From: Anaerolineales bacterium
Lineage (GTDB): Bacteria; Chloroflexota; Anaerolineae; Anaerolineales; Villigracilaceae
Length of the DNA: 64,000 bases
NCBI GenBank assembly: GCA_025056175.1
Contig: JANWWK010000061.1
Span: forward strand, 1 to 64,000
Direction: 5' to 3'
In this document: one piece after another, positions 52,271-57,336 of the stretch
How positions within the stretch are numbered: position 1 is the stretch's first letter
How the letters are laid out: the number at the start of each line of letters is the position of its first letter
The notes under the pieces: model-generated
Seen by the model: only the letters and a program-made list of their open reading frames with translations
Told to the model about the DNA's origin: nothing
Databases searched by the model: none
Translations under genes and position numbers: made by a program

Positions 52271-54352
52271 ATGAAAGAGTACACGACCGAGTACCTCCGC
52301 AACATCGCCCTGGTCGCGCACGGCGGCGCCGGGAAAACGATGATGGCGGAGGCTTTTCTTCATTTCACCGGAGCAACCACCCGTTTGGGCAAAACCGACG
52401 ATGGCACGACCGTTTCCGACTATGATGAAGAAGAAATCCGCCGCAAAATCTCACTCTATACCAGCGTGATTCCGGTCGAATATCGGGAGCACAAAATCAA
52501 CGTGCTGGATGCGCCCGGCTTCACGGATTTCATCGGGGAGATGATTTCGGCGTTGAGCGTGGCCGACGGCGCGGTTCTCCTCGTCGATTCGGTGGCGGGC
52601 ATGGAAGTCGGTACGGAACTGGCCTGGGATTACTGTGACCGTTTCCACCTGCCGCGCTTTGTGGTCATCAACAAGATGGACCGCGAAAACGCTAACTTTG
52701 AGAAAGCCTATGCTTCGGTGGATGAGTTCGCGCACGCTTCGGGCGCGCGTCTGGTTAAGGTACAGTTGCCGCTCGGCGAAAAGCTCGAATTTCGCGGCGT
52801 GATTGACCTGATAACCATGAAAGCCTACGAAGGCGATGGCAAAACGACCAAAGACATCCCGGCCGAATACCGCGCTGCCGCTGAAGAAGCGCGCACCGTT
52901 TTGATGGAAGCTGCTGCCGAAGGCGATGACGCTCTGATGGAAAAATACTTCGAGAACGGGGAGTTAAGCCAGGAAGAAATCCTGCGCGGTCTGAAAGCGA
53001 TTGTGCAAAGCGGAGCATTCGTGCCGGTCTTCGTCTCTGCCGCCGGGCATGAAAAAGGCGTTGGGCCGCTGTTGGATGCTATTCTGGCCCTGATGCCTAA
53101 CCCGGCTCAGCGTCCGCCCGTCACCGTGCAGGGGAAGAGCGGCGAGGAACAACTGACGCCATCCGATTCCGGCCCGACCGCGCTCTACGTCTGGAAGACG
53201 ACCGCCGACCCGTTCGTCGGCAAGATGACCTACTTCAAAGTGCTTTCGGGCAGTGTGGCTGCTGATGTTCACCTGTGGAATCAGACCAAAGGCGCCGATG
53301 AACGCATGGCCGGTTTGCACATTCAGCGCGGCAAAGAGACCCTTCCGGTCAAACTGGTTCATGCCGGCGATATTGCCGCCGTTACCAAGTTGAGTGTGAC
53401 CGCCACCGGCGATACCCTGTGCGATAAGAACCACCCGGTGACCATCCCCGTTCCGGCTTACCCCAATGCGCTCTACCGCGTCGCCATTCAGCCCAAAACG
53501 CAAGCCGATGCTGCCAAAATTTCGCCCACGCTCACCCGCTTGTGCGAAGAGGATATGACGCTTTCGTGGTACAACGAGCCAGCCACCGGCCAAACCATCT
53601 TGCAAGGGATGGGCGACCAGCATATTGACGTGGTCATCAACCGCGCACAGACCAAGTTCCAGGTTGGTCTGATTATCACGGAACCGAAAGTGCCTTACCG
53701 CGAAGGTATCACCCGCAAGGCGTCGGCGCAATACCGCCACAAGAAGCAAACCGGCGGCGCCGGACAGTTCGGCGAAGTCCATCTGCGCATCGAGCCATAT
53801 CCCGAAGGCGACTTCCTGTTCACCGATGAACTGGTGGGCATGAACCTTTCACGCTCTTATCTGCCCCCCATCGAAAAAGGCATTCGCGCTGCAATGGAAC
53901 AGGGTGTGTTTGCCGGTTACCCGATGAGTAACGTCAAGGTCATCGTGTATGACGGCAAAGAACATCCGGTGGATTCCAAGCCGGTGGCCTTCGAGACTGC
54001 CGGACGTGAAGCGTTCAAACTGGCGGTGCAGGATGCCGGACCGGTCTTGTTTGAGCCGGTGATGAACGTGCGGATTACCGTGCCAGATGCCAACATGGGT
54101 GATGTGATGGGAGATCTGAACACCCGGCGCGGACGGGTGCAAGGCACCGAAGCTGAGCGCGGCAAAACCACTATCATTGCGCATGTTCCGCTGGCCGAAA
54201 TGCTGCGCTACACCACGCAGTTGCGTTCTCTCACGGGCGGGCGCGGTTACTTTACGATGGAATTCGACCACTACGACATCGTGCCACAGCACCTGACCCA
54301 GCCGATTGTGGAAGCCCACAAGAAAGAACTGGAAGCCAAGAAAGAAGAGTAA
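52271..54352 (+). CDS. Elongation factor G paralogue (EF-G2 type)
   Basis: 693 residues with the five EF-G domains. The P-loop is AHGGAGKT (16-23) instead of AHIDAGKT, and switch II reads DAPGFTDF (80-87), with Phe where translocating EF-G has the catalytic His. G4 NKMD is intact. These changes mark the EF-G-like paralogue class (T. thermophilus EF-G2-type) rather than the main translocase. Its role is uncertain: ribosome recycling, stress translation or slow GTP turnover have been discussed for relatives. GAGGAG precedes the ATG. No rpsL, rpsG or tuf is nearby, also unlike the main fusA. Confidence 0.9.
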   Translation: MKEYTTEYLRNIALVAHGGAGKTMMAEAFLHFTGATTRLGKTDDGTTVSDYDEEEIRRKISLYTSVIPVEYREHKINVLDAPGFTDFIGEMISALSVADGAVLLVDSVAGMEVGTELAWDYCDRFHLPRFVVINKMDRENANFEKAYASVDEFAHASGARLVKVQLPLGEKLEFRGVIDLITMKAYEGDGKTTKDIPAEYRAAAEEARTVLMEAAAEGDDALMEKYFENGELSQEEILRGLKAIVQSGAFVPVFVSAAGHEKGVGPLLDAILALMPNPAQRPPVTVQGKSGEEQLTPSDSGPTALYVWKTTADPFVGKMTYFKVLSGSVAADVHLWNQTKGADERMAGLHIQRGKETLPVKLVHAGDIAAVTKLSVTATGDTLCDKNHPVTIPVPAYPNALYRVAIQPKTQADAAKISPTLTRLCEEDMTLSWYNEPATGQTILQGMGDQHIDVVINRAQTKFQVGLIITEPKVPYREGITRKASAQYRHKKQTGGAGQFGEVHLRIEPYPEGDFLFTDELVGMNLSRSYLPPIEKGIRAAMEQGVFAGYPMSNVKVIVYDGKEHPVDSKPVAFETAGREAFKLAVQDAGPVLFEPVMNVRITVPDANMGDVMGDLNTRRGRVQGTEAERGKTTIIAHVPLAEMLRYTTQLRSLTGGRGYFTMEFDHYDIVPQHLTQPIVEAHKKELEAKKEE

Positions 54353-54360
54353 AGCCGCAC

Positions 54361-54391
54361 AAAAATCGGGGAGCGTGCGCCCCGATTTTTT
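54361..54391 (+). terminator. Terminator of the EF-G paralogue gene
   Basis: 11-bp stem AAAAATCGGGG/CCCCGATTTTT with an 8-nt loop and a T-run. Confidence 0.9.
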
Positions 54392-54423
54392 GTTAAATTT
54401 ATGATAAAAATTATCCAGATTGC

Positions 54424-54451
54424 TTGACTTTCACGAATAGGCGAGTAAAAT
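54424..54451 (+). promoter_or_regulatory. Promoter of the cysteine operon leader
   Basis: TTGACT, 16-bp spacer, TAAAAT. The -10 ends 7 nt before the ATG of the leader peptide, so +1 should fall on or next to that ATG. Confidence 0.8.
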
Positions 54452-54458
54452 ACGAGGT

Positions 54459-54506
54459 ATGAAGAAGTTTAACTTACTTTGCTCCTGTATGGCGCGGGGT
54501 TCGTAG
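54459..54506 (+). CDS. Cysteine-codon leader peptide (15 aa), probably leaderless
   Basis: A short ORF encodes MKKFNLLCSCMARGS then TAG. Two Cys codons (TGC 480-482 and TGT 486-488, prefix 54) lie directly before the first strand of an RNA hairpin. It is followed by competing antiterminator and terminator stems and then by DUF4395-thioredoxin-cysK-cysE. This is the arrangement of amino-acid attenuators: ribosome stalling on Cys codons would report low Cys-tRNA. The ATG coincides with the predicted +1, so the mRNA is probably leaderless. No homologue search was possible. Confidence 0.7.
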   Translation: MKKFNLLCSCMARGS

Positions 54507-54560
54507 CCGCCGCGCCTTCGTAACAAAAGCAAAACATCACCTGACCGAAGGAACGGCGCG
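54491..54560 (+). promoter_or_regulatory. Attenuator: pause hairpin and alternative antiterminator
   Basis: Strand 1 GGCGCGG (54491-54497) pairs with strand 2 CCGCGCC (54510-54516). Strand 2 can instead pair, from 54511, with strand 3 GGCGCG (54555-54560), extended by 54517-54520 with 54546-54549 across a 5-nt bulge. Strand 3 is needed for the terminator, so the folds exclude each other. Confidence 0.7.
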
Positions 54561-54650
54561 CGAATCCCGCAGAGGCATTCCCCTCGAGGGGCGCTTTTTC
54601 GCCGTTCTTTTGTTTTGCCTGCTCAGGGCGAAACCGGTCAGGTGGTTTTT
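54538..54650 (+). promoter_or_regulatory. Outer long-range stem with a second T-tract
   Basis: CACCTGACCG (54538-54547) is fully complementary to CGGTCAGGTG (54635-54644), which is followed by GTTTTT. It encloses the attenuator terminator and may be a second terminator or a stabilising closing helix. It competes with the antiterminator at 54546-54547. Confidence 0.45.
54551..54616 (+). terminator. Attenuator terminator of the cysteine operon
   Basis: Strand 3 GAACGGCG (54551-54558) pairs with strand 4 CGCCGTTC (54600-54607), followed by TTTTGTTTT. The loop holds an inner perfect hairpin CCCCTCGAGGGG (54580-54591) that itself precedes CGCTTTTT. About 95 nt upstream of the first structural gene. 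Confidence 0.75.
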
Positions 54651-54701
54651 ATTTGGGAGCCTGCCACAGACAATAGATTTCCAACGCAAGGAGTAAATGA
54701 C

Positions 54702-55196
54702 ATGGAGCAGTTACAAAAAATAGACCACAGCGCAATGACCGTCAACCAGGTCATCATCATCGCGCTCAATTTCATCGCATTTGTGTTAAATCAACCCTGG
54801 CTGGTAGCTCTGGTAACCGCCTTCATGCTGCTGGGAACCCTGCTGGGCAAGCCCGGCTTCGGCTTTCTCTACCACTCCCTGCTCAAACCCACCGGATGGG
54901 TCAAGCCGCACGTCCTGCTCGATAACCCCGAACCGCACCGCTTTGCACAAGGACTGGGCGGCCTGTTCATGCTGAGCGGCACGCTGGCTCTCTTTGGAGG
55001 ATGGAGTCTTTTGGGGTGGGGTCTGGTGTGGATGGTGGCCGCGCTGGCCGCACTCAACGCCTTTGGCGGCTTTTGCGTGGGGTGCTTCGTCTACTACTGG
55101 TTGACCCGTCTGGGAGTGCCAGGCTTCTCAAAGACTCCGCCTGCCGGTACATTTCCGGGCATGCGCCCGAAAAGTGCGGTGAACGATGAACGTTGA
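54702..55196 (+). CDS. DUF4395 membrane protein with CxxC
   Basis: 164 residues, four membrane helices, ending with the family motif GFCVGCFVYYWL that contains a membrane-embedded CVGC pair (C125, C128). AAGGAG lies 8 nt before ATG 54702; the frame back to 54615 is rejected. DUF4395 proteins have no settled function. Here the gene is first in an operon with a thioredoxin-like protein, cysK and cysE, behind a cysteine attenuator. A role in sulfur-compound uptake or in transferring thiol electrons across the membrane is inferred. Overlaps the next gene by 11 bp. Confidence 0.85.
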   Translation: MEQLQKIDHSAMTVNQVIIIALNFIAFVLNQPWLVALVTAFMLLGTLLGKPGFGFLYHSLLKPTGWVKPHVLLDNPEPHRFAQGLGGLFMLSGTLALFGGWSLLGWGLVWMVAALAALNAFGGFCVGCFVYYWLTRLGVPGFSKTPPAGTFPGMRPKSAVNDER

Positions 55197-55605
55197 ACTG
55201 GTCGAGCGTCTCCTTCTGTCCGTATTGCTTTCTGCTCTGGCGGTTGCAGCCTATCTGTTCCTGAACCGTTATTTGTTGCGGCGGGCTTCCGGCAAGCTGG
55301 CGCGCTTTCCCTCCTACCGGGTCGGGCGTCCGGCACTGGTGTATTTCAGCACGCCCACGTGCGCGCCATGTAAAACGGTTCAGCGTCCGGTCATCGAGCG
55401 GCTGAAAAACCGCTATGGTGAATGGTTTCAGGTCATCGAAGTAGATGCCAGCCGGCAACCGGAAATCGCCCAGGAATGGGGCGTGATGACCGTCCCCACC
55501 ACGTTTGTGATAGATGCCAGCGGCAAGCCGCGTTATGTGAATCAGGGCGTTGCCACGGCAGAAAAACTCATTCAACAACTCGAACTGGAGGATTTTTCGA
55601 TATGA
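55186..55605 (+). CDS. Membrane-anchored thioredoxin-like protein
   Basis: 139 residues. One N-terminal helix (8-30) anchors a thioredoxin fold with the redox site CAPC (C59, C62) and the cis-Pro loop in MTVPTTF. The CAPC pair differs from the classic CGPC. It probably exchanges electrons with the DUF4395 partner or reduces a sulfur substrate for CysK; both are inference. Its stop overlaps the cysK ATG (ATGA), so translation is coupled. Confidence 0.88.
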
Positions 55606-56537
55606 AAATTGCAGCCAACGTCACCGAACTGATTGGAAATACCCCGCTGGTGCGCCTGAACCGGGTCACCAACGGTGCCGCCGCCGAAGTGGTGGCAAAA
55701 CTGGAGTTCTATAACCCGGCCAAGAGCGTAAAAGACCGCATTGGCTTTTCGATGATTGACGCAGCCGAAAAAGCAGGTGTGCTGACCGCGCAAAAGACGA
55801 TTGTGGAACCCACCAGCGGCAACACCGGCATTGCGCTGGCCATGGTGGCCGCAGCCAAAGGGTACAAATGCATTCTGACGATGCCAGAAACAATGAGCAA
55901 AGAACGCCGGATGTTATTGCGCGCTTACGGAGCAGAATTGGTGCTAACCCCCGGCCCCGAAGGAATGGGCGGCGCCATTCGCAAGGCAGAAGAAATCGTG
56001 CAATCGGACCCAGAAAAATACTTTATGCCGATGCAATTCAAGAATCCTGCCAACCCCGAAATTCACCGCCTCACGACTGCTGAAGAAATCTGGCATGATA
56101 CCGATGGCAAGGTAGATATTGTCGTTTCAGGGATTGGCACCGGCGGGACGATTACCGGCGTGGGCGAAGTGCTGAAGAGCCGCAAACCTTCGGTACAGAT
56201 GGTGGCCGTCGAACCGGATGCTTCACCGGTGCTTTCCGGCGGCGTAAAAGGCCCCCACAAAATTCAGGGCATCGGTGCCGGGTTCGTGCCAGAAGTTCTG
56301 AATACGAAAATCTACGATGAAATTGTGCGCGTGACCGATGACAACGCTATGGAAACCGCCCGACGCCTGGCGCGCGAAGAAGGCCTGCTGGTTGGAATTT
56401 CCTCCGGCGCCGCCACCTGGGCCGCCTTGCAGGTGGCACACCGCCCGGAAAACACCGGCAAATTGATTGTGGTCATCATCCCCTCGTTTGGCGAACGGTA
56501 CCTGTCTTCAGCGTTGTATGCACACCTGGCCGATTAG
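55602..56537 (+). CDS. cysK: Cysteine synthase A (O-acetylserine sulfhydrylase)
   Basis: 311 residues. PLP enzyme making cysteine from O-acetylserine and sulfide (or a sulfur donor). The Schiff-base Lys is in [11 protein letters not shown] (about residue 43), the substrate loop is [11 protein letters not shown] and the PLP phosphate loop is [13 protein letters not shown] 55602 follows the family start ([15 protein letters not shown]). It is coupled to the thioredoxin gene and followed after 40 bp by cysE. A frame from 55422 is the overlap with thioredoxin and is rejected. Confidence 0.96.
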
Positions 56538-56577: not shown

Positions 56578-57336
56578 ATGCAAATCGAAGTATCCCAAAC
56601 CGTTCAAACGAAAAAGGCTAAAGCGCCCGGCTTTTTAGACTCGGTGCGCGAAGACCTGAACTCGGCCCTGCAACGCGACCCGGCGGCGCGCTCGCGCCTG
56701 GAGATTGCCCTGCTCTATCCCGGCTTGCATGCGATTTGGATTCACCGACTCAGCCACTGGCTGTGGAATCGGGATTTCAAGCTCCTGGCGCGCTGGCTCT
56801 CACAACTGGCGCGCGGGTTAACCGGCATCGAAATTCACCCCGGCGCAAAAATCGGGCAAAGAGTCTTCATTGACCATGGCATGGGCGTTGTCATTGGCGA
56901 AACCGCCGAAGTGGGAGATGACGTGACCCTGTATCATGGTGTGACGTTAGGCGGAACCTCGCTCAACAAAGGCAAGCGTCACCCAACGATTGGCAATCGC
57001 GTCACCATTGGGGCCGGCGCCAAAGTGCTGGGCAACATTACTATTGGCGATGACAGCCGCATCGGAGCCAACGCAGTGGTGGTCAAATCGGTGCCGGAAA
57101 ATTCGGTGGTCGTTGGCGTGCCAGGACAAATCGTCAAACGCGCTCAGCCACACCGTCCCAGCGATGCTCCTGACCTGAATCATACTGCCCTGCCAGATGT
57201 CTTTGCCGCGGCCATCCGCGATTTGCTGGCGCGCGTAGAAGACCTGGAGACACGCGTCGAAGGCCATTCTCATGTTCACACTGCCCACTACACCCCGGTG
57301 GGCGAAGCATGGCAGGAAGTGGATTACACGATTTGA
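56578..57336 (+). CDS. cysE: Serine O-acetyltransferase
   Basis: 252 residues. Makes O-acetylserine, the substrate of CysK. N-terminal helical domain, then a left-handed beta-helix of hexapeptide repeats ([36 protein letters not shown]) with the catalytic DHG and the [15 protein letters not shown] loop. The C-terminus extends about 60 residues beyond the helix with a short coiled segment ([13 protein letters not shown]) and lacks the usual CysK-binding Ile end, though it does end in I. GGAG is 5 nt before ATG 56578. Last gene of the operon. Confidence 0.95.

Follow-up and report, generated by a model that had tools for sequence, protein, structure and literature searches.

A putative cysteine-responsive transcription attenuator with two conserved cysteine codons recurs ahead of sulfur genes in one class of Chloroflexota

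The leader of a DUF4395-thioredoxin-cysK-cysE operon, found in the 64,000-nucleotide stretch of Anaerolineales DNA analysed here (the window), is best read as a ribosome-mediated transcription attenuator of a cysteine regulon that senses charged tRNA-Cys, a reading to which we assign a probability of about 0.9. Comparison of related sequences shows its short open reading frame (ORF), its cysteine codons, its two alternative folds, an outer stem and its sulfur-gene context; the signal would be the charging of Cys-tRNA, the output would be read-through into the operon, and the dependence on ribosome position is a computed one. On this reading, a transcription attenuator specific for cysteine and equipped with an intrinsic terminator would recur in one class of a phylum whose gene regulation is, to our knowledge, little known. 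A point against this reading is that two cysteine codons are few.

A preliminary description of the leader had named a promoter, a 15-codon ORF with two Cys codons and four pairing strands, and re-reading of the sequence recovered each of them in its place. The sigma-70-type promoter (TTGACT-N16-TAAAAT, 54,424–54,451, forward strand as for all features that follow; −35 TTGACT at 54,424–54,429, −10 TAAAAT at 54,446–54,451) is one of two promoter-like sites on both strands of 54,300–54,800, against a mean of 0.3 in shuffled sequence. The ORF, MKKFNLLCSCMARGS-stop (54,459–54,506; ATG at 54,459, stop codon at 54,504–54,506), has no Shine-Dalgarno motif and is probably leaderless, because its ATG lies only 7 nt past the −10 element from which we infer the transcription start. 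It carries the putative sensor codons UGC-UCC-UGU (Cys-Ser-Cys, 54,480–54,488; UGC at 54,480–54,482, UGU at 54,486–54,488), and strand 1 indeed begins 2 nt past the second of them. Strand 1 (54,491–54,503) can pair through 54,491–54,501 with strand 2 (54,505–54,520), whose partner is either strand 1, in the 1:2 hairpin, or strand 3 (54,546–54,558), in the antiterminator; part of strand 3 (54,551–54,558) can instead pair with strand 4 (54,600–54,607) in a terminator that ends in a first U-tract, UUUUGUUUU (54,608–54,616).

Two further pairings were absent from the preliminary description. Within strand 1, GCGGGGUUCG (54,494–54,503) matches CGAAUCCCGC (strand 3′, 54,561–54,570) in the terminator loop over 10 bp and would extend the antiterminator, and an outer stem formed by AUCACCUGACCG (O5, 54,536–54,547) and CGGUCAGGUGGU (O3, 54,635–54,646) surrounds the 3:4 terminator and is followed by a second U-tract (54,646–54,654). 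The four-strand claim thus stands in that 1:2, 2:3 and 3:4 all occur and are kept in relatives, but the predicted antiterminator is larger than 2:3, joining strands 1 and 2 with 3 and 3′. The RNA from 54,459 to 54,702 folds at −97.2 kcal/mol, compared with a shuffled mean of −74.7 (z = −4.97; equalled by 0 of 200 shuffles), and the features of the window are beyond chance because 163 further copies exist. A simple terminator scan with a loop limit of 3–8 nt missed both attenuator terminators, probably on account of their longer loops. The operon behind the leader comprises the DUF4395 gene (PF14340 domain match, 54,702–55,196), a thioredoxin-like gene (PF00085 domain match, 55,186–55,605), cysK for cysteine synthase A (TIGR01139 above cut-off, 55,602–56,537) and cysE for serine O-acetyltransferase (TIGR01172 above cut-off, 56,578–57,336); it is followed by a gene for a GntR-type regulator, and the leader is preceded by an EF-G-like gene that has its own terminator (54,361–54,390).

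In the proposed mechanism, RNA polymerase would start at the promoter and a ribosome would begin the short ORF, by a probably leaderless start in the window and by a Shine-Dalgarno-led one in most other families of the order tested. When Cys-tRNA is plentiful, the ribosome would pass UGC-nnn-UGU, reach the stop codon and mask strands 1 and 2; with both masked, no antiterminator could form, the 3:4 terminator would fold, and transcription would end at the first U-tract or else at the second one, behind the enclosing outer stem. When Cys-tRNA is short, the ribosome would wait at a Cys codon with its leading edge at or in the first bases of strand 1, so that strands 1 and 2 would pair with 3′ and 3 ahead of the synthesis of strand 4; this long hairpin would block the terminator and allow transcription of the DUF4395-thioredoxin-cysK-cysE operon. 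Here we depart from the preliminary description, in which strand 1 paired with strand 2 and was masked by a stalled ribosome, since strand 1 is predicted to pair with 3′ in the antiterminator.

Folding calculations assumed ribosome leading edges 13, 19 and 37 nt from the first Cys codon for ribosomes at the first Cys codon, the second Cys codon and the stop codon. For RNA that ends at 3′, the 2:3 pairing exceeded 50% in 92 of 96 leaders when no ribosome was present, in 94 with a ribosome at either Cys codon and in 0 with a ribosome at the stop codon. At equilibrium with strand 4 present, 3:4 exceeded 50% in 76 (no ribosome), 51 (first Cys codon), 77 (second Cys codon) and 88 (stop codon) of the 96, and 2:3 did so in 12, 35, 14 and 0, respectively. 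The window leader, folded to the U-tract at minimum energy, adopts the antiterminator when a ribosome stands at either Cys codon, and the terminator when it stands at the stop codon or is absent. The earlier expectation that a ribosome at the stop codon leads to termination therefore agrees with these folds, at the assumed edge; the expectation that a Cys stall leads to 2:3 agrees with them before strand 4 is made (94 of 96) and in the window, but not with the full-leader equilibrium in most relatives. Since that equilibrium mostly disfavours the antiterminator under a Cys stall, the model needs co-transcriptional timing: the logic would hold at equilibrium for the window, and in most relatives it would require an antiterminator that is formed first and then maintained. 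By the same argument an untranslated leader, in which the off state (1:2 plus 3:4) is favoured at equilibrium, could also form the antiterminator first (92 of 96) and read through. In these calculations, the choice of fold by ribosome position appears as the weakest step of the model.

Among 11 genomes of the genus, a DNA search found homologous leaders in 4, including the window's own, and it also found them ahead of DUF4395 in other genera; in two congeners with no DUF4395 match (G003 and G007), the leader stands immediately 5′ of cysK-cysE. A first covariance model, R1, trained on 12 sequences with the Cys codons included, searched 152 genomes of the window's family and detected the element in 132, covering all 26 genera, some genomes having two or three copies; R1 gave no match in the other 20 of the 152, some of them near complete. 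Among 301 genomes from across the phylum, R1 matched 21, all in the window's order except one (locus L158 in G169, of another class, E 0.002), which we rejected by eye as a false positive because it lies inside a longer open frame and has no sulfur gene. As R1 includes the Cys codons and its matches favour them, a Cys-blind model, R2, was built from 45 sequences that start after TGC-nnn-TGT; of 400 genomes from the order, 175 gave a match with it. Of these, 72 lie outside the window's family, from 30 of which 32 loci, mostly higher-scoring ones among the places listed, were taken (G246, G307 and G355 among the 30 had previously been matched by R1). A third model, R3, with 57 diverse training sequences and the Cys codons included, was run on 297 genomes of the class that are at least 90% complete and matched 73 of them, 39 of the 73 outside the order; it also matched 25 genomes of a 291-genome phylum sample, all of them of the window's class (the sample's number from other classes is not given). 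From R3 we added 36 loci, of which L322 lies within the order and the other 35 come from 33 of the 39 matched genomes beyond it; the R3 loci of G734, G908 and G1025 share a contig with an R3 training sequence. The set for the order thus holds 128 elements (96 family copies, that is, 99 matches minus 3 duplicate loci, and the 32 Cys-blind ones) and the full set 164 copies (these 128 and the 36 R3 loci). Judged by these sequences, the leader is a class-wide conserved RNA family of which the window element is one copy, and organisms with a name that carry it are, among others, Anaerolineae bacterium Nak57 and Candidatus Desulfolinea nitratireducens.

Conservation of the Cys codons, which the preliminary description had named in advance as a point whose absence would count against it, extends to every element examined: in the order, each of the 128 elements has two Cys codons that are separated by one codon and so form no run of adjacent Cys codons, and all 164 copies have Cys-x-Cys (CxC) codons. 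CxC among R1 and R3 matches is partly ascertained, as both models contain these codons (R3, which favours CxC, gave 36 of 36), whereas the Cys-blind R2 set outside the family has TGC-nnn-TGT exactly in register before the model start in 32 of 32. Fifteen of the 19 weaker R2 matches listed also have TGC-nnn-TGT before the model start, off by one base in two of the 15 (L255 and L274); the four that lack it (L304, L305, L306 and L307) were taken as chance matches. An ATG is open in frame with the Cys codons in 123 of 128 elements, whereas the two remaining frames give 5 and 11, and 161 ATGs within 45 nt upstream are in frame versus 15 and 8 out of frame. A test with any start codon (128, 11 and 117 of 128 by frame) was discarded in favour of these ATG counts as uninformative, because TTG overlaps the TTGC context. 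The stop codon falls exactly 8 codons past the first Cys codon in 121 of 128.

These counts also bear on the interpretation that the leader is a T-box-like riboswitch that binds tRNA or a ligand, the ORF being a by-product. The leader is highly structured, lies ahead of amino-acid genes and has nearly invariant bases in strands 1 and 3′, all of which would suit a riboswitch, but we consider this exceedingly improbable, given the in-frame ATG in 123 of 128 elements, the Cys codons kept where the model does not demand them, and the result of an Rfam search, which returned no family at gathering score for the leader (up to E = 1 it gave two snoRNA matches, far below gathering).

Another interpretation is that a metabolite, and not codon starvation, causes a nascent CxCxxRGS peptide to arrest the ribosome at the stop codon or close to it, as in the metabolite-responsive arrest peptides TnaC and SpeFL. 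The C-terminal conservation (R in 127 of 128 elements, G in 119 and S in 90) and the L, M or I that follows the second Cys in 108 of 128 are what an arrest peptide might show, but we consider this reading very unlikely because the R, G and S are encoded by strand 1 (GCGGGGUUCG), where bases are constrained by pairing, and lineages with a different strand 1 end differently (RRGR, GRGL, RRGQ). Moreover, the middle residue of CxC varies (L 46, S 34, M 22, I 17, T 6, and F, N and V 1 each; n = 128), as does the fifth residue (R, G, W, K, S, A, T or E), and a stall at the stop codon would mask strands 1 and 2 and favour termination.

The Cys codons themselves follow a fixed order, UGC-UGU in 126 of 128 elements and UGU-UGU in 2, which is not explained by coding alone; the window's open frames of at least 200 codons use TGC 210 and TGT 119 times. 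tRNAs that read UNN codons carry a thiolated A37, and a speculative suggestion, which we regard as unlikely, is that the order UGC then UGU forms a two-step sulfur gauge that responds to how far tRNA-Cys is charged and also to its sulfur-dependent modification, with a ribosome waiting at the first Cys codon just clearing the base of the antiterminator. If so, the leader would sense cellular sulfur beyond cysteine alone, and its position ahead of rhodanese-SufE, of a sulfite-reductase-type gene and of a sulfur transporter would agree with that.

Initiation of the ORF appears to differ among copies of the attenuator. A promoter was called in 117 of 128 elements, with 6–14 nt from the −10 to the ATG in 28 and 18–68 nt in 89; a promoter lies 4–12 nt before the ATG in 28 of 123 elements, compared with a mean of 7.5 and a maximum of 14 in 50 mononucleotide shuffles. 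Twenty-six family elements, the window's included, have the ATG 6–14 nt past the −10, 25 of the 26 with no Shine-Dalgarno-like motif, and two f92 elements resemble them. The remaining 24 elements outside the family have gaps of 28–65 nt and, in 20 cases, a Shine-Dalgarno-like motif before the ATG; the remaining 65 family elements have gaps of 18–68 nt and such a motif in just 22. With transcription starts placed by inference, the switch probably works with both short (probably leaderless) and led starts, the family itself being mixed, and the RNA logic of one attenuator would have been kept across both kinds of start.

Evidence for two competing folds comes from a family alignment (A4, 85 non-redundant rows) that was not fitted to the alternative fold. 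Its high mutual-information pairs include 3:4 (73–127), the inner hairpin (95–107), 2:3 (30–78), 1:3′ (23–83 and 20–86) and 1:2 (12–37), alongside several others that are not helix partners. The terminator fold pairs 87.3% of cells, with double changes in 18 of 25 pairs (reached by 0 of 500 shuffles), and its 3:4 helix has double changes in 8 of 8 pairs and 94.7% of cells paired; a T-rich tract follows strand 4 in 12 of 12 sequences, and an intrinsic terminator is accordingly predicted before the first gene. The alternative fold pairs 80.9% of cells versus 76.5% after shuffling (0 of 500; slid versions 26–51%), its outer extension being weak (51–56% of cells). One 2:3 pair, whose upstream partner is unpaired in 1:2, occurs as AU 56 times, GC 16 times, GU 12 times and otherwise 5 times. 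The conserved complementarity asked of relatives by the preliminary description is therefore seen as pair-keeping double changes in the terminator fold and in the alternative fold alike.

For the 1:3′ helix alone, covariation on 12 sequences was not significant (matched by 105 of 500 shuffles), and single 1:3′ pairs are mostly near-invariant inside the family; RNAalifold over order and class keeps 1:3′ as the sole helix, and outside the order strands 1 and 3′ change together (GCGAGGGC with GCCCUCGC, GCGGGAAUAG with CUAUUCUCGC). In an alignment-free test on 148 non-redundant copies of the 164, strands (1+2)×(3+3′) of the same copy paired at a mean of −35.8 kcal/mol versus −28.6 for cross-pairs between copies. 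Set against its mean over cross-pairs, a copy's own pairing was the stronger in 140 of the 148 copies, and outside the order in all 32. Own pairing also beat the cross mean for strand 1 alone (132 of 148) and strand 2 alone (128 of 148); for the tail of strand 1 (positions 19–28) it was preferred in 80 of 148, and in 37 of 85 within the family, which is no preference. The outer stem reached an own helix score of at least 18 in 108 of 128 elements versus 33% of cross-pairs and was stronger by energy than its cross mean in 106 of 128, and at least 5 T occur in the 10 nt after it for 90 of the 108 good stems versus 5% in background.

GCGGGGUUCG and CGAAUCCCGC resemble a T arm. A derivation of strands 1 and 3′ from the T arm of tRNA-Cys, which the tRNA-Cys gene beside DUF4395 in L034 would also suggest, is disfavoured, since GCGAGGGC and GCCCUCGC at class level speak against a fixed T-arm sequence.

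The conserved, covarying intrinsic terminator with its U-tract, and the second one behind it, also weigh on a third interpretation, namely that regulation is translational or Rho-dependent attenuation, as proposed for the polycysteine leaderless short ORFs of mycobacteria that Canestrari 2020 reportedly describes, and that the hairpins are incidental. In the excerpts available, leaderless Cys-rich ORFs before cys operons are the nearest published parallel, but we consider this interpretation highly improbable because both terminators stand between the ORF and the gene.

The first downstream gene, called by tblastn within 450 nt of each of the 164 copies, is a cysteine or sulfur gene in 161, the other three copies lying at contig ends. 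Together with the conserved Cys codons and the covariation of both folds, this supports the trp/his-type attenuation logic that had been proposed for the window. That first gene is CysK-type in 117 copies, a rhodanese in 19, DUF4395 in 15, CysE in 3, an O-acetylhomoserine/O-acetylserine sulfhydrylase in 3, of sulfite/nitrite-reductase type in 2, and thioredoxin-like and a sulfur transporter in 1 each; because the queries for the rarer genes were drawn from the same loci, their share, though not their identity, is circular. Examples checked for family identity include rhodanese with SufE behind it (L118 and L097), PF01053, NIR_SIR with PAPS reductase, and PF04143, and the reductase and transporter are named by domain only since their NCBIfam scores fall below cut-offs. 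The regulated set put forward earlier, DUF4395-thioredoxin-cysK-cysE, does lie behind the element but is too narrow. The candidate cysteine regulon drawn from sequence would comprise cysK, cysE, DUF4395-thioredoxin, JAB, rhodanese-SufE, the O-acetylhomoserine/O-acetylserine sulfhydrylase, a sulfite-reductase-type gene with PAPS reductase and a sulfur transporter, and it would connect the supply of cysteine with DUF4395, a domain whose function is unknown.

A JAB-domain gene (PF14464) follows CysK in L111 (1501–1923), and a JAB match lies behind CysK in 17 of the 36 class-level loci (for example L318 and L323); these neighbours bring to mind the mycobacterial Mec-CysO-CysM sulfur-carrier route. 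In L070 (741–1172) a thioredoxin-like domain is fused to a ThiS domain. DUF4395 is further present in three MAG records that carry the label Spirochaetes (L279, L285 and L295), which gave no attenuator match save an L295 fragment at E 0.97.

The four-strand layout is that of the trp attenuator. By its sequence, the element has the features that define classical attenuation: like the trp, his and leu attenuators, it has a short leader ORF with codons for the cognate amino acid, a cognate biosynthetic operon behind it, and an antiterminator and intrinsic terminator that are mutually exclusive. It departs from them in amino acid, in the role of strand 1 and in its nested second terminator: the element uses cysteine through only two codons, split as UGC-nnn-UGU; strand 1 joins the antiterminator (1:3′), which would add a layout to those of known attenuators; the terminator sits inside an outer stem that has a second U-tract; and part of the group probably has a leaderless start. 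As far as the excerpts available go, the mycobacterial polycysteine ORFs are similar in placing Cys codons before cys genes with cysteine as presumed signal, leaderless Cys ORFs there preceding cys, cysA2 and related genes (Shell 2015, PMC4633059; Seliverstov 2005, PMC1262725), but they belong to a different phylum and have runs or clusters of Cys codons in place of CxC. No conserved terminator hairpin was found upstream of mycobacterial cys operons, according to the part consulted of PMC1262725, and a review, likewise in part, holds that the polycysteine ORFs regulate translation (PMC9031893). The preliminary description knew of no such attenuator for this lineage, and the available portions of the literature searched, one library (including PMC9031893, PMC13236596, PMC9094748 and PMC2965389), name none in Chloroflexota and give cysteine attenuation for Actinobacteria only.

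In L080, tandem attenuators (401–537 and 706–836), each with a CxC ORF, precede a single CysK-type gene; this tandem is on the same contig as L261 of Candidatus Desulfolinea nitratireducens (1121–1248 and 1426–1547). In G042, a genome with no attenuator match, a tRNA-Cys(GCA) gene (L034, 1750–1822, minus strand) stands immediately before DUF4395.
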